Below, in pieces: positions 7,595-49,845 of a stretch of DNA of 64,000 nucleotides (the stretch's first letter is position 1; every line of letters begins with the position of its first letter). The position numbers and the translations under genes were made by a program. The stretch lies in assembly GCA_019914995.1 (NCBI GenBank), contig CM034131.1, forward strand, positions 1,550,001 to 1,614,000. The letters are read 5' to 3'. The DNA is from Acanthochlamys bracteata. Its lineage: Eukaryota > Streptophyta > Magnoliopsida > Pandanales > Velloziaceae. The notes below the pieces were generated by a model that made no database searches, had not been told where the DNA came from, and was given only the letters and a program-made list of their open reading frames with translations.

Positions 7595-7857
7595 GGGGGT
7601 GTTTGGCTTTGCTTTTCTCCAACCCAACTTTTTAATTCTCCATTTCACGTTTTTCAATACATATTTTATAAATATATAAAAAATTTATTTAAAAATTTAG
7701 AAAGTGTAGAAAAATTTTACGGAGTGAGAGATCTTTTTATTACATATTTTTATTATTTTTTGTAAGAAAAAAATAGAAATTGCTTTTTCAAAAAAAAAAA
7801 AAAAATATCCTTCATTTCACAAAAGCTCCATTTCATAAGCAATCCCAAACACCCCCC
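7595..7857. mobile_element. MITE, GGGTGTTTGG family
   Basis: Terminal inverted repeats start GGGGGTGTTTGGCTTTGC and end GCAATCCCAAACACCCCC. The interior is AT-rich and non-coding. It is clearly the same family as 49586-49845: both contain TTTCACGTTTTTCAATACAT, then AGAAAGTGTAGAAAAATT, and the end TTTCATAAGCAATCCCAAAC. It lies about 270 bp upstream of the HSFA5 start and so could have altered that promoter. Confidence 0.8.
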
Positions 7858-8124
7858 AAGACTCGACCCGAAATGAAAAGAAATGATATAATTATGAGTC
7901 AAATTAATAGACCCGAAACGAATGTTTACAATCCCGGGCCCAATACAACACATTACATGTTACATCCCTAAATTTCTAGCCTTAATATGCAGAACATGAT
8001 TTTTAGTGGACCTCTGTTGCTAACCTAAAAGAATAATCGTCCAAAGTTCTCCAACGACCTTCCTCGAAGTCCACAACAGTTCTGTCTCTCTCTCCCCGTT
8101 CAGTCGGCAGAGAACATATCGTAG

Positions 8125-9583
8125 ATGGAATCCGACAACAATCGACAACCGGAAGCGGCGGTGGAAGCGGCGGAGGTCCGGCGCCATTCTTACTGAAGAC
8201 CTATCACATGGTCGATGATTCTTTGACCGACGACATCGTCTCCTGGAGCGATTCATCCAACTGTAGCTTCGTTGTTTGAAATCCACCTGAATTTGCCGCT
8301 CGACTACTTCCTACTTATTTCAAGCACAACAATTTCTCCTCCTTTATTCGACAACTCAACACTTATGTATGTACACGATTGATTGGATTGGAATTCTGAA
8401 CTCTGTTTACTTTAGGGTTGTTAATATGTTGGTGAATTGATTGATTGGTTAACATCTGTCGTTGTTCTGTTAGGGTTTTAGAAAGATTGATCCAGAGAGG
8501 TGGGAATTTGCAAATGAGGATTTCATTAGGGGTCAGAAACACTTGTTGCAGAATATTCACAGGCGAAAACCGATCCATAGCCACAGTCATCCGCCGCAAT
8601 CAGGGCTTCCTGATGCGGAGCGTGCAGCGATGGAGGATGAGATTGACCGGTTGACTCAGGAGCGTGCTGCTATGCAGGCTGATTTGCAGCAGTTCAAGCA
8701 GTACCAGCCGACGCTTCGGATTCAGTTGGAAGCCCTTGATGATCGGCTTCAGAGCATGGAAGTACGGCAGCACCGGATGCTTGATGTTATCAACCACGCT
8801 CTCCAAAGCCCGACTTTTGTTGAAGCACTTGCTAATGTTGCTCATGACCCCTCTGTTGTTCAAAAGAAGCAAAGAATTCGTCTTGCAGAAACGGTATTAT
8901 GACGTGATTTCTGTGACAAGTTGAAATTGGAACTATCTCCGGCCATGTCCAACCAAAATCTGGTTCTGACAACCTGCCACAGCTCAAATGTGGAAGACGA
9001 CAGCCCCAATGGGAAGCAGCAGCCAGAGTATGGGGGTGTTATGAATGCAAGGGTTGAGTGCCTCGCTTTGGTCCCTGAGACACTTGAGCTCACAGGTACT
9101 GGTGCATCTTGTTGCCACAGGAAGAAAGTCTTGTTTGATAAAGATATGGATGAGGAAAGGGAGGGATTCATACCATGCCATTTGAGCCTTACATTGGCAT
9201 CTAGTTCTTTGCAAATTAAGACAACTAGTTCTCTGACAAGTGCTGACCTGCCGTTAAGTAATCATCTAGTAGGCAATGGCAGTGAGTCTACAGCCAGCAG
9301 TAGAGGAGAAATAGATCCTGGTGGGACAGTGAAGGATTCAAAGGAAACTCCCTCTTACATTGAGGCACCAAGCGCTAATCAGACACTTGCACCTGCAGCT
9401 CCTCAAGGGAGAATAAATGATTTGTTCTGGGAGCAGTTCCTCACCGAAAGGCCAGGCTCTTCAGATACGGAAGAGGCGAATTCCAGTTTGTGTGCAAACT
9501 CTGTGGAGGAGCTACAATATGAGAAGGTTGGAAATGACACTTCTTGGCGTACCAGGAAAAATATGGAGCAATTAACCATCTGA
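8125..9583 (+). pseudogene. HSFA5: HSFA5-type heat-shock transcription factor, reading frame disrupted
   Basis: Class A heat-shock factor closest to HSFA5, known in Arabidopsis to bind and repress HSFA4. Exon 1 (8125-8366) and exon 2 (8474-9583) are split by a 107-bp GT-AG intron at the position conserved in HSF DNA-binding domains, after FIRQLNTY. Recognisable parts are a Gly-rich N-terminus, the domain core ([28 protein letters not shown], then KIDPERWEF), HR-A/B coiled coil, LKLELSPA block, the FWEQFLTERPGSSD activator motif and a C-terminal MEQLTI export-like end. The frame is broken. The only nearby ATG (8125) is one base out of frame with the domain. A TGA at 8277-8279 replaces the Trp of the usual VWNP motif. 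Another in-frame TGA at 8900-8902 lies where about 30 residues of the usual linker seem to be missing. The kept intron rules out a processed copy. Sequence error at all three sites is possible but unlikely. A functional product from downstream starts would lack half the DNA-binding domain. Confidence 0.8.
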
Positions 9584-13328: not shown

Positions 13329-16084
<2,756 letters not shown>

Positions 16085-16184
16085 TGTTGAAGAGGTGAAG
16101 CACTCTCTCTCTATGGATCTGAGAAGAATGAAAGCGAATGGTAATGACGAGAGAGACGAAGGAAGAATAGGGGGGAAGAAAGGG

Positions 16185-16192
16185 TATATATA
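16185..16192 (-). promoter_or_regulatory. TATA box of SAHH
   Basis: TATATATA on the minus strand in a GC-richer flank, about 100 bp upstream of the SAHH start codon, followed by a CT-rich leader typical of highly expressed plant genes. Confidence 0.65.
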
Positions 16193-16289
16193 GAGAAGAT
16201 GAGGAAAGGAATGGACGGCCCGGATTTGAGAGGGGTTGTTGAATGAAGTTCGCGAGCTTTTAGGATCTGGTGGTAGAATGCGAGTCATG

Positions 16290-22199: not shown

Positions 22200-22382
22200 T
22201 TTATGGATACCTATATCATCATCACCAAAAGTGAAAATTAAGGGGAAAAAAAAAGAAGAAAAAAGAACAAACCTTAAAGTCCACTCACCGCACCGCATCA
22301 ACCTCACCCACCAAACCCTGCTCTCACGTCTCACCTTCTGCTCCCGAAATCAAATCATGTTCTCTCCTTCTCTTCGCCTCTC

Positions 22383-22388
22383 TATAAA
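22383..22388 (+). promoter_or_regulatory. probable TATA box of SHMT
   Basis: TATAAA in the context CTCTATAAATCC, 137 bp before the conserved start codon, with a CT-rich stretch downstream suited to a leader. If used, transcription would start near 22413-22420, after the upstream in-frame ATG at 22357. Confidence 0.55.
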
Positions 22389-22524
22389 TCCTCCTTCCAT
22401 TTCTCACCTTCTTTCTCGTCGCACTCCCAGATCTGAACGTTCTCTTCTTCTCTCTTTCTCTACTTCAACAACCACCGCTCTCCATAGTTTTTTATCTTAT
22501 TCTCCTTCAATCACCACCGCCGCC

Positions 22525-25520
22525 ATGGATTCTGTTGGTTCATGGGGATTAACTCCACTCGAACAATCAGATCCAGAGATCTTCGAGCTCATCGAGCGGG
22601 AGAAACACCGTCAATGCAGTGGTATCGAACTAATCGCTTCAGAAAACTTCACTTCCTTCGCCGTAATGGAAGCTCTCGGAAGTGCTTTAACTAACAAGTA
22701 CTCCGAAGGAATGCCTGGTAATCGTTATTACGGTGGTAACGAGTATATCGATAAGATCGAGAACCTTTGCCGTGACAGAGCGTTACAAGCTTTTCATGTG
22801 GATCCGGCGAAGTGGGGCGTTAATGTTCAGCCGTATTCCGGTAGTCCGGCGAACTTTGCTGCGTATACGGCTTTGCTTAATCCTCATGATAGAATCATGG
22901 GATTGGATCTACCATCCGGTGGACACTTGACGCATGGGTACTACACTGCTGGTGGTAAGAAGATTTCTGCAACTTCGATTTACTTTGAATCCTTGCCTTA
23001 TAAGGTTAGCGCGGATTCGGGTTACCTTGATTACGATAAGCTTGAGGAGAAGGCATTGGATTTTCGCCCTAAGTTGATTATCTGCGGTGGAAGTGCTTAT
23101 CCGAGGGATTGGGAGTACAAGAGATTGCGTGAGATCGCTGACAAGTGCGGCGCAATGCTGCTCTGCGATATGGCTCACATCAGCGGGCTCGTTGCTGCTC
23201 AGGTATTGCAATTTCGACTAGTGGATCTGAATTATGTGTGGATCTAGATGTTTTGGTTATGAAAGGTGCATGCTTTTTCAAAATGTAATTTTTGGACCAT
23301 TGATCTGTTTATGTGATTCTGTTTTCTGTTCTTTATTTCATTTGTTATGAGAGATTGTATATTGTATTTAGATCAATTTGGTTCAGTTATTAAGGGTACT
23401 TGCATAGGTCTAATTCTGTTATAACTATATTTTTTATCTGAATGTTTAGTAGGTCTGCATGTTTGGTGAAGTATTTGTTTTGTTATAGATTATGTGATGA
23501 ATGTTCTTTCGTATGTCTAATGTAGGTGTAGATGTCTGTTACAAGTTTGTTGTAATGCTTGTTAGAGTTAACTGGCATCCTTGGTTGAGATATACTTTTG
23601 TCCATTTAGACTTTTGCGCTTTGGGTATAAATAAGTTCTAAGCTTTCTCTGCCAATCATGTGAATATGAAGTGATTGGTGTTGACTCGTTATGTTGTGCT
23701 TAATGTAATGGGTACCATGTGCTTATATTTGTATGTACCTTGGGCGTACTTAGATCTGTATGTGTTGCCCATTTCATTCCTAGTTTTAGATCATTGTGGA
23801 TTTCTTTGTTGGAAACGTCTTAAGGAGTGAAATGACCAATAAGAGCAACAAGGGAGTTGGTTTTCGTTGTTCATATGGTACACCAGGTTTGGTTTTGTGC
23901 CGCATTCTATGCGTTCGTTCGTGCTTATCTTTAGAAGGGACACTGAGATCTTAGTGTTCATTTTATAATTGTCTGGTTGTTTATGAAGTGTGAACATTTT
24001 CATAGCATCTGCTTTGCTTATCAATCCTTCTTCAATCACTATTGGGGTTTTAATTGCTTGGAGCTCTAGGTGACTAGTAATAGTTCTAGGAAATACTGAG
24101 TGGGTAAAAGAATGATGTTTAGATTCCTTAGGTTTCACTAATGGTTTTCAGATTTCATCTTTGTCTTTTCCTGTTCGGTTTTTGGTCTTCTTGTTGCATT
24201 TATCATCTTTGCAATTGTATTGCAGGAAGCTAATAATCCTTTTGAATACTGTGATGTGGTGACGACCACCACTCACAAGAGTCTTCGAGGTCCAAGAGCT
24301 GGAATGATCTTCTATAGGAAGGGCCCAAAGCCTCCTAAGAAAGGCCAGCCTGAGGGTGCTGTGTACGACTATGAAGACAGAATCAACTTTGCAGTGTTCC
24401 CTTCTCTCCAGGGTGGACCCCACAATCACCAGATTGCTGCTTTGGCTGTTGCTCTTAAGCAGGTCATGTCCCCTGGCTTTAAGGCCTATGCTAAGCAGGT
24501 CAAGGCCAACGCTGCTGCCCTCGGAAACTATCTGATGAAGAAGGGCTACAAAATTGTAACTAATGGTACTGAGAACCACCTTGTTCTCTGGGATCTTCGC
24601 CCTCTTGGTTTGACTGGTAAGCATAGGAAGTACATCGCTGCGGAAATGCTTGTTTGTGCTTCATGATCAAGAGGTTGCTACTTAATGCTTCTCGCTGAAG
24701 AATGATAATTATGTCCCTTTTTATACCTGCAGGAAACAAAGTTGAGAAGCTCTGTGATCTTTGCAACATTACGCTCAACAAGAATGCTGTTTTTGGTGAC
24801 AGCAGTGCGCTGTCCCCTGGTGGTGTTCGTATCGGTAAGTATCATTTTATGGACTATAAATAACTTGAAAATGATATAGCATCACTTTTCTCATTTGTGT
24901 TATGTTGAACTTGCTTTGACAGCCACCCATGTTTATGGAACTGTCAGCTAACTATGTGGAGTGATCATCTTTGTGTATAATCAGATTAGATAGAGTCACA
25001 TAGAATAGTGTATTTTGATTTGTTAATACGCAGACATTAAGTTACAATGGAGAACACTGGAAAATTTAATCATCATTTGTTGAATTGGGGGGGCTAGTTA
25101 CTTTGAAGTTGTGTACTAGTGCCTTTATCCAGTTGTATTCCAGCTGTTTTAAACATATCTGAGTTCTCTTCATGTTTTAGCATATGGCTAATGAAATATC
25201 TGTTTGCTTTTTGTTTGAGCTTACTTTAGTTATCTCATTCATTAAAGCTCTTTTTTCTGTTATATAATGTTGCAGGTGCTCCTGCAATGACTTCTAGGGG
25301 TCTTGTTGAGAAGGACTTTGAGCAGATTGCTGAGTTTCTTCACCAGGCTGTGACCATTACTCTGAACATTCAGAAGGAACATGGGAAGCTCTTGAAAGAC
25401 TTTAACAAGGGCTTGGAGAACAACAAAGACATCGAGAACCTCAAAGCAGAGGTTGAGAAGTTTTCCACCTCATTCCCCATGCCTGGCTTTGATATGTCTA
25501 CTTTGAAGTACAAGAACTGA
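22525..25520 (+). CDS. SHM4: serine hydroxymethyltransferase, cytosolic type, complete
   Basis: PLP enzyme interconverting serine and glycine with transfer of a one-carbon unit to tetrahydrofolate. Coding exons are 22525-23202, 24226-24616, 24733-24834 and 25276-25520, all GT-AG, giving 471 aa, the length of Arabidopsis cytosolic SHM4. Motifs include [48 protein letters not shown], the PLP-lysine motif [12 protein letters not shown] (Lys244 by my numbering) and [11 protein letters not shown]. The start is chosen at 22525 because the context CCGCCATGG is strong and [14 protein letters not shown] matches cytosolic N-termini. The frame stays open upstream to an ATG at 22357, which would add 56 residues resembling an organelle transit peptide (see findings). 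No disruption is seen. SAHH lies divergently upstream. Confidence 0.96.
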
Positions 25521-26710
25521 GATTTGTTTACTCCAAGCTCTCCCTCTATGGCACACTTTCACCTGTGGGATTTACCCCACTTTGTTTTACCTATTGCGCT
25601 AGGGTTCTTCACAAGCTTTCTTACGCCTGCTTTATTTTAGTTTATTTTATTTTCATTTAGAATAACTTTCTTGTCAGGATGGTCATCTAGGATAATTGTA
25701 ACTACTATTTACTTACGTATATAAGTGAGAATTATTATGGCGAAGCCTTTTTATCGAGGAATAAACTCGGTAAACCTGCTTTTGCAGATGGTGTTATACT
25801 AGTTCTCATTTTCCAGATGTCCTTTTTGAGTATGGTTAAAGTTGGGGTGCCTAGATTTTGAGGAGTTGTGATAGCCAGAGTATAATGTAGGGGAAGGCTT
25901 GTTTTTATATGATGCGTTAGATTTAGATATCCATTGCTGTTGTTTACTGCAGTTACAGTGCAGTTGACTGCAAGCTAAGATTGTATTGGTCATCTGCAAA
26001 CAGCATTGTTTGGCTCGATAATGTCAATTTCTCTGTTTACTTTTGTGTTTTTCCTCATAATGAGACTGTATTGTAAGTCATTGTATTTCCTTGTTTAAGA
26101 TAAATCTTGGTCTCATTATTTGATTAAATCCTCCACAGTAACATGAAATGCAGAAAGCAAAGAGAAGACTATCATGTGGACACTTGACGTTGAATTTAGC
26201 CAGCCAGTTACTGGTTGATCTTTTAGATGCAAATTTCACAAGAAAAGAATACATTGTTGAATTGTTTCAATTTCGGTCCTCCGTTACGACAATGTTGATG
26301 AGTTCATTTTCTTAATATTGGGAAGTAATTTATGTTATTGGGAAGTAAGTTTTGTGAGCAAGGAAATGGATTTGGAAGTGTGGGTTTGATAGAAAATACA
26401 GAGAGTATGAACTTCACAGCACAGGTGAACCTTGCTGCATCCGCAAGTCCATTTTGTCTCTGATCGGCGTAGGCCTTTTCTTTTGAGAACCAAATTTTTG
26501 CAGGTAATGGTGCTGGACGAAGCCGAACCCAATCATATGAAACGGAAGGTCTTTTGAAATCGATTGTTTTGATTTGGCTATGACGGTTTTGGCATGCTAA
26601 AATGGAACGACCGGGGGATCCAATAGAACGAACCTCCACAGGAGTGTTTAGGTCCAACGCGAGGGTATAGTACCATGACCATAGGATTTTTCCAAAATAT
26701 TTTATTTTTT
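25521..26710. other. SHMT 3' UTR and intergenic DNA
   Basis: About 25521-25790 is likely 3' UTR, with AATAAA at about 25760. No gene is recognised beyond it. Minus-strand open frames around 26304-26657 show no domain. Confidence 0.5.
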
Positions 26711-27323: not shown

Positions 27324-27797
27324 CTACTTCGTTCCAGTTCCAGGTCCCCCGCGGCAATTGTAGTGTTTATTGCAGCCGCGCCTCCAAGGACGACCGACCG
27401 GCTTAGGCCTGAAGTCTTTGTTCTGGTTGCAGTTCTTCAACATTCCACATAGATTGAGATGGCTTGGCCTCTTTCCGGCCTTCTGACTCAAGAATACATC
27501 TGGGAACTCGGAACCAAACTCAGTTTTCCTAAAAGAATCAACTTCATTGGCTACTCCATCAGTTATTTCATGTTCATTTGGTTCAAATGAACCAAGAGGA
27601 CCGTCGGCGACCGGTTTAGTTACAGCAGATTTATCTATCCAATAGAGACTATGCGGTGGCCCTGTAGGTATTGGTTCGGTTGGAATAATTGGCCAATCTT
27701 TTACAAAAGAACCTCTTCTTCTAGCCTCTGCAGTTGATAGCTGATTGCTAAATAGCACAAGGAGCATAAGCGCAAAGACTGAAATGAACTTTTTCAT
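27324..27797 (-). CDS. secreted cysteine peptide with RALF-like C-terminus
   Basis: Intronless 157-aa precursor. Residues 1-25 are a clear signal peptide (MKKF then a hydrophobic core, cut near AEA|R). A proline-rich stretch follows (DWPIIPTEPIPTGPP, 34-48), then an acidic middle. The C-terminus has four cysteines at 117, 123, 142 and 148, with RRGC and HYNCRG. The last pair (RGC, five residues, C followed by R) matches the RALF family, but the first pair is spaced by 5 rather than about 10 residues, no YISY motif is present and no RRxL site precedes it. I call it a diverged RALF-like peptide; other cysteine-rich families remain possible. Probable function: apoplastic signalling (inference). 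It lies between SHMT and J20, with a decayed second copy right upstream. Confidence 0.7.
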   Translation of the reverse strand: MKKFISVFALMLLVLFSNQLSTAEARRRGSFVKDWPIIPTEPIPTGPPHSLYWIDKSAVTKPVADGPLGSFEPNEHEITDGVANEVDSFRKTEFGSEFPDVFLSQKAGKRPSHLNLCGMLKNCNQNKDFRPKPVGRPWRRGCNKHYNCRGGPGTGTK

Positions 27798-27866
27798 GCT
27801 TAAGTTAAATTAGAATACCTAATATCTCTGAAATATACCGTATAGCCAAGTTCAGAACTCTATTAG

Positions 27867-27874
27867 TATTTATA
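27867..27874 (-). promoter_or_regulatory. probable TATA box of the RALF-like gene
   Basis: TATAAATA on the minus strand, about 70 bp upstream of the start codon of the 157-aa peptide gene, in the context CCCTATAAATACTAA. Confidence 0.6.
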
Positions 27875-28245
27875 GGGCCAGGACTTAAAACCGCTAGTGA
27901 GCGGTAATAAAAGGAAATTAAAGTTGAGTATTGGCGTGTAATTAAATGTAAATATGTTTTGCTTAATTTTTAATGGCTAATAAATTGAGTCATTCATTTC
28001 TGAACTTATTGAGAAATGTTCATAAATTAATTGTAGATTGCTATTTTGTAAAGAAGTTTCTAACTAATAAGAGTTGAACCTTTTGGCTAATTGATCAACT
28101 ACGAGCGTGAATATTTAGAAATTGAGTATAAGAAATAGTTGAAGCTTATATTTGATTGTATATAAAAGTAAGTCCAAAAATAATATTTTTATTTTGTTAT
28201 ATATTGAAAGTTAGTTGGAGTAAATTTAAAAAAAAGAAAGGTGTG

Positions 28246-40316: not shown

Positions 40317-43300
40317 CTCCCCCTCAAGTTGGTGCATAGATGTCACACATGTCCAACTTGTCTAAAAATTTTGAGAAGACATGCTTTGAAACTGGCTTGG
40401 TGAGAATGTCGGCCAATTGATCTTCTGATCAAATCTTAGGCAACTCCAGAATCTTTTCATCCAACTTCTCCTTTATGAAGAACATGTCTACCTCAACATG
40501 TTTAGTGTGATCATATTGGACTGGATTATGTGCTATGTCATATGCTGCTTTGTTATCACAAAACAATCGAATCGATTGCTTAGATGTAAAGCCCAAATCT
40601 TCTAGAAGAAGTTTCAACCATAATGCTTCACAAAGTCCAAGTGCTAAACTTTTGAATTCAGCTTTTGCATTTGAGCGTGCTACAACATTTTGTTTTTTTT
40701 GCTTCTCCATGTAACTAGGTTACTGCCCACAAATGTAAAGTAATCTGAGGTGGACCGTCTATCATTAATTGCTCCATTCCAATCAATATTAGTATATACA
40801 TCTATATTTTGACAATTTATATTCTTTCCAGGAGCAGACTTTAAGTACCTCAAAATGCTTATTACTGCATTCATATGTTGCTCTCCAGGACTATGCATAA
40901 ATTGGCTAACAATACTCAATGCATAAGCAAGATCAGGTCTTGTATGTGCTAGGTACATCAATCTTCCTACCAGTCTCTAATATCTCTCTTTGTTAGCTAG
41001 TACCGGATTAGTCTCAATACGCAGCTTCAGACCTTCTTCCACTGGTGTATCAATTGGTTGACACACAAACATACCAGTCTCCTCTAATAGGTCTAAGACA
41101 TACTTTCATTGTGATAGAAAAATTCTCTTCTTACATCGAGACACTTCGATTCCAAAAAAGTATTTCAAAGGACTAAGATATTTCATTTCAAATTCTCTAG
41201 ATAAGTAATCTTGTAATGCCTTCATTTTTTCCGGATCATTTTCTGTAACAACCATGTCATCTACATATATAATAAAAGCAGTGATTTTGTCATACCTTTT
41301 TTTAAGAAATAAAGTGTGATCTGAATTGCTCTGATGGTACCCAAATGTCACTATAGACTTTGTGAATCTTCTAAACCATGCTTTTGGAGATTGTTTCAAT
41401 TTATAAAGTGATTTTTTTAATTTACACACCTTCTGTCTATGAGTCGCTGATGACATACACCCTGGTGGAAGATCCATATAAATCTCTTCAGTTAATTCAT
41501 CATGTCGAAAGGCATTCTTTACATCAAATTATTGAAACGGTCAATTTAAGTTCACAGCTAAAGATAACAAGACTCGAACTGTGTTGATTTTTATTATAGG
41601 TGCAAAAGTGTCTGTGTAGTCAATTCCGTAGGTTTGAGTGTACCTTTTTGCCACCAATCTTACTTTGAAGCGTTCGATTGTACCATCTGCTTTATACTTC
41701 ATAGTATATACCTATCGGCATCCAACTGTGGTCTTTTCTGGAGGGAGATCAGTAAGTTTCCAAGTTTCATTCTTTTGTAAGAATTTCATCTCTTCATTCA
41801 TAGCTTCTTTCCATCTTGGATCACTTAAAGCTTCCTGCACACTGTTAGGAATAGATACAACAGATAATTAATTTACAAATGATAAATTAGATTCTGACAG
41901 CCGATGGTTAGATATATAGTGACTCATTGGGTATTTAGCTTTATTAGAAAGTTCAGGTTTATACGTGAGTTTAGAAATACCTCTATTATGACGGTGTGGT
42001 AACTATTTTCTGGATGGGTCAGACACTAAATTAAGAACATTCTCAGCAGGCGATTGGTTTGGTATATTTGTTGATTGTTGAGCGAGGGATTCTGAATAAG
42101 GTGAAATTGGTCTCACATCTTCAGTTTCTAAGTGTTTAATACCATTTCCATCTAAAGACACATCAATCAAGTCCTCGTCAATTGGTTCTGATAGAGAGTT
42201 GTTGTCACCGTTGTCCAATGCTTGGTTAGCAAAATCAGATGACGCATATTTTTTAGAAATATCAGACTCATAATCTAAGGTCTGAACTTCTTTCAACTTC
42301 TCCCCCTGAAGTTCAGTCATAGAATAAAAATACATTATATCTTCATGAAATACAATATTTATTGTAATAAACATGCGCTGAATTGGAGGATGATAATATC
42401 TATACTCTTTTTGATGCGCAGCATATTCAAGAAATACGCATCTCAAAGCTCGATGACTCAACTTGTTACGCTGGTGATGGTGAAGATGTACGAACGCCTC
42501 ATAACCAAAGATACGAGGGGGTAAGTTCGAAATTGCCGGCACAACAGTTGCTTCCAAGAGAGATGCGAATGGTATCTTGAAATCTATAGAACTTGATAGT
42601 ACCACATTTATGATATATGCTACAGAAATAAGTGCTTCTCTTCAATAAGTTAGCGGCATATGGGCTTGTATCAATAAGGTACGAACTACTTTCAATAAGT
42701 GTCGATTTTTCCTCTTGGCAATCCCATTCTATTGTGATGTATTCGGATATGTAGCCTGAGGAATTATACCATGTGCTTCTAGATACTGCTGAAGTGCGAA
42801 TATGTATATTCGCCACTATTATCACTACGAAGAACCTGAATGTGTGCATTGTACTGAGTCTGAACCATCTTTGAAATCTTTGAAATAAATAGTTCACCTC
42901 ACTTTTAGACTTCATCAAGTAAAGTCATGTCATTCTGGTACAATAATCAATAAAAGTAACAAACTATCGTGATCCACCTAATTTAGTGATTTTAGATGGT
43001 CTCCAAACATCAGAATGTACTATCATGAAAGAAAGTGAATTTTTATTCAAACATAATGGAAAAAAAGTACGATGACTTTTTGCTAGTTCACAAACATCAC
43101 ATTTAAAATTAGAAAGATCAACTTTATGAAACAAATTAGGAAATAATTTTTGCAGATAATCAAAAGAGGCATGCCCCAATCGTCGATGCCATAACCAGAT
43201 TTCTGACTTTTTGTCTTCTCACCCTTTAAGCCATCTACGGTCAATGCTTGATGTAACTTGTCAGAACTCTTTAACACCAAATTCAAATAATATAGTTGCC

Positions 43301-46156: not shown

Positions 46157-47488
46157 ATGGAGGCCGCGGCAATGAAAGAAGCGCAGCTCTCGACCGCAAT
46201 CAATACCTCTGATGAACTTGCTGGTAGCAGCAATACTTCTGAAGACGATCAGGAGCACCGCCGCATTGTCTCCAGTCAAGAATCAGAGAAAATCGCCGAC
46301 GATGGTCGTGAAGGGAGCATGCCGTTCAAGAAACGAAAGGAACCCTACTGCTCTAGCTCTAGCTATGACGAGACCTTTCAATCCACTGGAAGTAACGATC
46401 GGACGATGATAATCGCAGCTGATTTCTCCTCTGATCGTCAGGATCACGATGATCAGAGCAGCATGCATTTCAAGAAACCATCAAGCTTTGCGCCGTTGAA
46501 TGCTGCTGAGATCACCGCCGATGCCCAATGCAACAACAGCAGCACTACCACCACCACTGCAAAGCCTTTCAAGAAACGAAGTAGGAAATCGCGGCCTCAC
46601 CGTGCTCCATTCGGAGATTTCCACACTTACCTAACCTCTACTACTTGTTCTTCTTCTTCGTCAACTTCCATTGCTGCTGCGGCGCCGTCGCGTAAGAGTA
46701 AGAACATCAAACCCATCAGGCAGCAGCATGCCGGTGATGTTCATGTTCGCGTAGAGAAGAAAGATTGTAAGAAGAAGCCAAATAACCAGGAGATGGTAAC
46801 AGAACCATCACCGGATTTCCAGGAGAACAATATGCCGGTCAGTAATGTTCATGTCGAGAAGAAGGGTGCTAATAATAAGAGGAAACCGGGTAAGGAAGAA
46901 GCGGTATCGGAACCAACGCCAGAGCAACACGATTGCATGAGGAACATTGGTGAAAGTCATGGCTGCTCTGCAGCGCCGATGCACTTCCACAGCAAACATG
47001 TGACTTTGAGCGACGTTCTGGCAACACAGAACCGTTTGCTTATTAATGACAAGTCGAAGAAGGTTAGAGCGCTCTTGGAACAAGTTCTCAGTAATGAGGA
47101 GATGAACATCGTCGACTATGACAATCACGGGCTCTCTGTTGTGCTTGTGGACGGCGCCGGGAAGGTTTATGAGAACATTGACGGGGGCTATGATGCGGAG
47201 GGAAAGAGGGTCCCTGAGAAGCACGCCAGACTCAGGTACTTGGAGAGCAACAAGAGTTTCAGAATCAGAGGGCGCAGCTACAAGGAGTTCATCGAAGATT
47301 ACAAGCCGAAAGAAGAAAAAGACCTGCTTCACCTCTGGGCTTTCGTCGTCTCGCCGGACAACGGTGAACGAAAAATCTGGATCGGGCTGATAAAGGAGAA
47401 GAGCCACCTAGCAGCACAACGGCCAAACAATCACCAGATGCCACCCGCAGCTGGTCTTCATAATCAGATTGTTGCAGCAGGTCCTTGA
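46157..47488 (+). CDS. B3-like domain protein, intronless
   Basis: 443-aa single-exon protein. The first two thirds are low-complexity, Ser/Thr/Lys rich, with repeated short basic motifs (PFKKRKEP, HFKKPSS, PFKKRSRKSRPHRAPFG) that could act as nuclear signals. The last third, about residues 276-420, is a folded-looking region: VTLSDVLATQNRLLI, LSVVLVDGAGKVYENI, then SYKEFIEDYKPKEEKDLLHLW and a short WIGLIKEK strand. This order matches plant B3 DNA-binding domains of the diverged REM/DUF313 type (strand, basic loop, GKVYEM-like strand, W..F...N.LKEGD..QLW). Such proteins are usually nuclear DNA-binding factors; the assignment is mine by pattern and needs a profile search. The first ATG is used, in context AATCATGG. 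A decayed duplicate of its 5' region lies at 38.5-39.9 kb. Confidence 0.65.
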   Translation: MEAAAMKEAQLSTAINTSDELAGSSNTSEDDQEHRRIVSSQESEKIADDGREGSMPFKKRKEPYCSSSSYDETFQSTGSNDRTMIIAADFSSDRQDHDDQSSMHFKKPSSFAPLNAAEITADAQCNNSSTTTTTAKPFKKRSRKSRPHRAPFGDFHTYLTSTTCSSSSSTSIAAAAPSRKSKNIKPIRQQHAGDVHVRVEKKDCKKKPNNQEMVTEPSPDFQENNMPVSNVHVEKKGANNKRKPGKEEAVSEPTPEQHDCMRNIGESHGCSAAPMHFHSKHVTLSDVLATQNRLLINDKSKKVRALLEQVLSNEEMNIVDYDNHGLSVVLVDGAGKVYENIDGGYDAEGKRVPEKHARLRYLESNKSFRIRGRSYKEFIEDYKPKEEKDLLHLWAFVVSPDNGERKIWIGLIKEKSHLAAQRPNNHQMPPAAGLHNQIVAAGP

Positions 47489-49585: not shown

Positions 49586-49845
49586 GGTGCGTTTGTTTTT
49601 GCTTTTTTCCGACGAAACTTTTAAATTTTTTATTTCACGTTTTTCAATACATATTTTATAAGTATTTAAAAAATTTATTTAAAAAATTAGAAAGTGTAGA
49701 AAAATTCTAGGTAATGAGATTTTTTTATTGCATATTTTTATTATTTTTTTAGAAGTAAACAAAATAGAGCTCATTTTTTCATAAAGAACAAAAATATCCT
49801 CCATTTTAGAAAAGTTTTATTTCATAAGCAATCCCAAACGCACCC
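49586..49845. mobile_element. MITE, GGGTGTTTGG family, second copy
   Basis: Same family as 7595-7857, with ends GGTGCGTTTG and CAAACGCACCC and shared interior TTTCACGTTTTTCAATACAT and AGAAAGTGTAGAAAAATT. The two copies are 42 kb apart and alignable end to end by eye. Non-coding. Confidence 0.8.

Follow-up and report, generated by a model that had tools for sequence, protein, structure and literature searches.

Background

HSFA5, one of the class A heat stress transcription factors of plants, is reportedly a repressor of HSFA4, as Baniwal et al. are said to have found in 2007. PMC4948027 likewise presents HSFA5 as a repressor specific to HSFA4. The copy number of HSFA5, as listed for different plants, varies: an HSFA5-HSFA5 pair is listed for Populus trichocarpa (PMC9373977, in which the stem "pseudogen" occurs 0 times), apple has HsfA5a and HsfA5b (PMC3575323), a single HSFA5 is given for each of Arabidopsis, tomato, and castor bean (PMC4746267), and one table of Rosaceae genes leaves HsfA5 blank for peach (PMC4310194). 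Given these varying numbers, keeping or losing an HSFA5 duplicate is an ordinary event. The HsfA5 entries of apple and pear give the motifs KKRR, DVFWEQFLTE, and AETLTL, the first of them as the nuclear localisation signal (PMC3575323, PMC4310194).

Here, we analysed a stretch of 64,000 nucleotides from Acanthochlamys bracteata (C6:1550001-1614000; hereafter, the window), belonging to an assembly of 195.5 Mb in 557 contigs, at least 19 of which are several megabases or longer by position (C19 extends past 5.1 Mb). We take the gene that occupies positions 8125-9583 of the window to be of the HSFA5 subclass, a name that relies on published motif lists and on the known features of the Arabidopsis protein. 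Our analysis makes it very probable that this locus is a pseudogene, one of two copies generated by a segmental duplication, the sister of which is open on contig C4.

A Second HSFA5 in the Genome

Positions 8125-9583, searched as DNA against the entire assembly, gave one other full-length match, located at C4:9198455-9199872, 81-82% identical, and with an E value reported as 0; the other 18 of the 20 matches covered 199 query bases or fewer each. An alignment of this quality to another, complete HSFA5 excludes chance resemblance. The gene on C4 is made up of two exons (9198432-9198662 and 9198760-9199872) that encode 447 codons free of stops, and it scored 97.7 bits against the full PF00447 domain. 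When the C-terminal half of its protein was used as query against the genome, strong matches among the seven candidates scored corresponded only to C4 itself and to the window, the remaining three C-terminus matches being two HSFA4 genes (E 2.4e-6 and 4.3e-6) and one with an E value of 0.015.

The genome-wide search for another HSFA5 that had been proposed in the earlier note has thus located one, open, at positions 9198432-9199872 of contig C4. That note had considered two outcomes: the loss of a brake on HSFA4 in this lineage, if this HSFA5 were the only one, or the decay of this copy, if the genome were duplicated. The first is left unsupported, since the C4 gene is open over its full length, which rules out the loss of a sole HSFA5. 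The second agrees with what we found, as the open C4 gene is collinear with the window copy and the Ks between them matches that of the neighbouring genes.

Structure of the Window Copy

The features of the locus and of its upstream region are as follows:

7596..7862, + strand: copy of a short, abundant repeat that is probably a MITE, located about 260 bp before the HSFA5 ATG
8125..8196, + strand: ATG-led frame of 23 codons with the original start ATG and a stop at 8194, frame-shifted relative to the DNA-binding domain
8172..8366, + strand: part of exon 1 that encodes the HSF DNA-binding domain (PF00447, conserved columns), containing TGA 8277-8279
8277..8279, + strand: TGA replacing a Trp codon (Trp in the C4 copy and in 21 of 26 other HSFs)
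8367..8473, + strand: intron within the DNA-binding domain with intact GT...AG ends, differing from its C4 counterpart at 22.6% of 93 aligned bases
8474..8902, + strand: first part of exon 2, with the end of the DNA-binding domain, the coiled-coil oligomerisation domain, an altered KKRR motif, and a terminal TGA at 8900-8902
8630..8902, + strand: remaining ATG-led frame of 90 codons, coiled coil only
8903..9583, + strand: second part of exon 2, with the linker, the activator motif NDLFWEQFLTE, the C-terminus MEQLTI, and the stop at 9581-9583; 74% identical to C4 (E 1.4e-98)

The three interruptions of the reading frame described in the earlier note were all recovered. The ATG at 8125 is out of frame with the DNA-binding domain, leading 23 codons up to the stop at 8194, and the alignment to the C4 copy revealed a one-base gap a few codons past this ATG, together with a 12-base difference. 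Upstream, the frame of the domain holds no ATG before the in-frame TAA at 8034, and CTG at 8082 is its only near-start codon among those looked for. The only ATG of exon 1 in the domain frame, at 8208, was discarded as an alternative start, as it leads 23 codons before the TGA at 8277. This TGA is located at 8277-8279 where the C4 copy has Trp, at a position occupied by Trp in 21 of the 26 other HSFs of the genome and by V, L, or I in the other five. The second in-frame TGA is present at 8900-8902, and the frame beyond it is open up to the stop at 9581-9583.

The rest of the gene is still preserved, as had also been claimed, with GT...AG ends in the intron (8367-8473) and a recognisable coiled coil, FWEQFLTE motif, and C-terminus. 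Exon 1 scored 67.1 bits against PF00447 with one TGA included (cut-off 22), which identifies it as an HSF-type DNA-binding domain, the corresponding C4 exon reaching 67.0 bits. An ORF running from an ATG through the DNA-binding domain, as a functional gene would have, is absent, and we infer that the window HSFA5 makes no working protein.

The repeat located upstream of the gene is about 265 bp long, has inverted GGGGTGTTTGG-type ends, and is found at 7596-7862 and 49591-49833 of the window. It is very abundant in the genome (3657 first-look candidates, 40 of them scored), with the other copies listed being 90-95% identical, and it is absent from the 6 kb upstream of the C4 HSFA5. We rejected it as the cause of the loss of HSFA5, as its family has many members in the genome and no evidence connects it with that event. 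Elsewhere in the window, positions 46157-47488 (+) contain a single open frame of 443 aa without a match in the 180 kb of C4 compared, and positions 41142-42605 (-) contain open frames that presumably correspond to a fragment of a Copia-type retrotransposon polyprotein, as judged by eye, two pieces of which match C4 near 9249 kb with 32-33% protein identity.

Assignment to the HSFA5 Subclass

Both copies show the activator region of HSFA5, with a single FWE motif each (NDLFWEQFLTE) and ends in QLTI (window) or QLTL (C4). With the start of exon 2 of the C4 protein as query, the window ranked second and the HSFA4 gene on C14 third, with loci on C2 and C3 outranking the HSFA4 gene on C13, and with the C-terminus as query, the window again ranked second, followed by the HSFA4 genes on C14 and C13. 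We take these last two genes to be putative HSFA4 members from their shared C-terminal match. As expected of a member of the subclass, the window copy has, by these rankings, its nearest relative within the genome in the other HSFA5, and HSFA4 follows.

Two details of the window copy deserved separate attention. The basic motif of the window copy is KKQR, so it lacks the KKRR listed for apple and pear; since KKRR is kept in C4, we read KKQR as damage to an HSFA5 member. The second detail is the linker near 8900, the short length of which had been counted in the earlier note among the signs of damage. The shortness is real, with 185 residues between the basic and the activator motifs in the window and 184 in C4, compared with 225 for apple HsfA5 according to the listed motif positions (PMC3575323). 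However, its interpretation as damage was wrong, since the intact C4 copy is equally short. A linker deletion was accordingly discarded as a lesion, and the short linker, being common to both copies, is older than the decay.

Origin of the HSFA5 Pair

Comparison of the window with 180 kb of C4 revealed a collinear block, in which window 3.6-25.8 kb corresponds to C4 9190-9227 kb, and an inverted one, in which window 51-63.5 kb, including a Sec23/Sec24-type gene, corresponds to C4 9129-9118 kb. Because the two blocks run in opposite orientations, a rearrangement probably lies within window 28.1-48.6 kb. Some matches fell outside the two blocks, most of them repeats and a multi-copy gene at C4 9228-9262 kb.

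The HSFA5 pair showed a Ks of 0.446 (431 codons), and five neighbouring long exons compared with C4 gave values of 0.439, 0.495, 0.552, 0.388, and 0.397, their Ka/Ks ranging between 0 and 0.18. These five were selected as truly coding, being long frames that fit known proteins, out of a list in which overlapping wrong-frame ORFs and short exons, with widely scattered values, also appear. For the HSFA4 pair (C13 and C14), Ks was 0.60 in exon 1 (91 codons) and 0.40 in the start of exon 2 (131 codons), calculated on long frames fitting HSF exons, with wrong-frame ORF pairs left out. The collinear blocks and a Ks matching that of the neighbours support a segmental origin of the HSFA5 pair, most likely through a whole-genome duplication, its genome-wide extent being presumed. 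The Ks values of HSFA5, its neighbours, and HSFA4 fit a single duplication of large extent. The window HSFA5 combines an open collinear sister with a block-level Ks, which is the pattern of an ohnolog pseudogene.

Regarding other parts of the compared regions, window 27577-28025 shows matches of 67-74% to at least six places within C4 9228-9262 kb, a pattern suggestive of a gene or repeat that multiplied there once the duplication had occurred, and the interval between both blocks (window 28.1-48.6 kb) has a single short match (161 bp, 71%) in the 180 kb of C4 compared. Genes for S-adenosylhomocysteine hydrolase and serine hydroxymethyltransferase are located near HSFA5 (window 13643-16288 (-) and 22231-25773 (+), respectively) and have collinear C4 copies in the first block; over one stretch of 181 codons, the protein of the former shows 100% identity to that of its C4 copy, with a Ks of 0.44.

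Selection and Age of the Decay

The pairwise Ka/Ks between the window and C4 copies of HSFA5 was 0.27 overall. It was lowest in the DNA-binding domain (0.08 and 0.04 for its two parts), intermediate in the oligomerisation stretch (0.22), and highest beyond the second TGA (0.47). Differences at the first, second, and third codon positions numbered 59, 46, and 105, a pattern that, like the low values in the domain, points to past constraint. The value of 0.47 at the C-terminus could reflect loose constraint in both copies. Among the 34 columns of the exon 1 domain that are kept in at least 80% of the 26 other HSFs of the genome, the C4 copy departs at two, and the window copy departs at the same two plus the TGA. 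In exon 2, polarisation of 23 differences by one HSFA4 sequence (C13) assigned four changes to the window and one to C4, with 18 undecided; those on the window side include two replacements by Q, of a K in the LLKNI stretch and of an R in the KKRR motif. With a single HSFA4 as reference, these numbers are a weak hint that the window copy may have decayed faster.

The age of the loss was modelled on the basis that 3.6% of random substitutions create a stop, with indels assumed at 0.12 per substitution and three quarters of them frameshifting. Under this model, two stops and one frameshift were likeliest at a neutral divergence of 0.02 (nine values tried), which is 9% of the 0.223 accumulated per lineage after the duplication, and from 0.07 upwards the probability of so few lesions was below 0.001, with the same assumed indel rate. 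As an upper case, placing all the nonsynonymous change of the exon 1 domain (Ka 0.063) on the window branch after the loss gave a fraction of about 0.28. As there are three disabling lesions only, function looks to have been lost late, approximately in the last tenth of the time since the duplication, an estimate that depends on the model. The recent loss proposed in the earlier note is supported by the conservation of the DNA-binding domain and the low number of lesions.

Alternative Explanations

It is also conceivable, albeit unlikely, that the locus is still segregating, with the broken form as one of its alleles and a working second HSFA5 in other plants of the species, a situation compatible with the pseudogene reading. 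The late look of the loss and the single haplotype seen speak for this, but three lesions on one haplotype would suggest a longer time than a young null allele needs.

Assembly or base-calling errors that disguise an intact HSFA5 as broken are a still less probable explanation. The lesions are few and the remainder is well preserved, which speaks for errors; however, they are three separate ones in a single gene, and none of the 26 other HSF exon 1 domain stretches contains a stop (the four stops in the profile match at C7:2006880 are due to an intron spanned by the match, with the exon ending near 2007058 and the next one starting at 2007153). In the search with the start of exon 2, which gave 28 matches corresponding to 27 loci, one of them in two pieces (the 28th HSF, at C5:10465509, had no match there), 26 of the 27 loci were open for 187-419 aa, compared with 142 aa in the window copy, the shortest one. 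In addition, the neighbouring long exons of the window are open and match C4, and both TGAs are substitutions, which are not the usual type of error in long reads. For three separate lesions in one gene, together with an open sister, decay is a better explanation than error.

Finally, the 90-codon frame at 8630-8902 might yield a peptide consisting only of the coiled coil, still able to bind and block HSFA4, and this we consider very improbable: the frame is led by an ATG and spans the oligomerisation domain, and Ka/Ks is 0.22 there against 0.47 downstream, but such a low value is equally expected from a long period as a working gene, the peptide holds two of the four exon 2 positions at which only the window copy deviates from the residue common to C4 and HSFA4 (residue 106 of exon 2, within the coiled coil, and residue 133, within the basic motif), and its translation would be disfavoured by the upstream ATGs and early stops, features that also predict transcript decay. 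More improbable still is a small regulator derived from a dying duplicate, in which this 90-residue peptide would go on acting as a brake by pairing with HSFA4, without binding DNA.

Fate of the Duplicate and Comparison with Known Systems

Under the pseudogene reading, a segmental, most likely whole-genome, duplication would have generated two HSFA5 copies, both of them probably kept under selection for most of the time thereafter. The window copy would then have lost its function and gathered the frameshift after the ATG, the two TGA stops, and the altered basic motif, with the C4 copy, presumably expressed, left to do the work of HSFA5. As the sister is intact on another chromosome, the locus has the look of a duplicate gene in ordinary decay rather than of a lost brake on the stress response.

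Both HSFA4 genes are retained, with open exon 2 frames of 396 and 371 aa. With these two genes kept and HSFA5 reduced to a single one of its two copies, the case represents one step of post-duplication loss in a stress-response circuit, and the ratio of repressor to target would be lowered if expression follows copy number. With an open HSFA5 on C4, the data show no lineage-wide loss of HSFA5, and losing one of two duplicates is common.

Compared with HSFA5 genes of other plants, the window copy shares the intron inside the DNA-binding domain, the coiled coil, the KKRR-type basic motif, the single FWE-type activator motif (FWEQFLTE), and a C-terminus ending in LTI/LTL. Unlike a working HSFA5, it is not readable throughout, owing to the frameshift, the two TGAs, and KKQR. 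As in the HSFA5 pairs of Populus trichocarpa and apple, there are two copies here, but one of them is broken, and in both the linker is approximately 40 residues shorter than that deduced from the motif positions of apple HsfA5. With the ohnolog pseudogenes left by whole-genome duplications, the window HSFA5 shares the open collinear sister, the block-wide Ks, and the few lesions in a conserved gene; no feature was found that distinguishes it from them, and it appears as one such pseudogene caught early in its decay.
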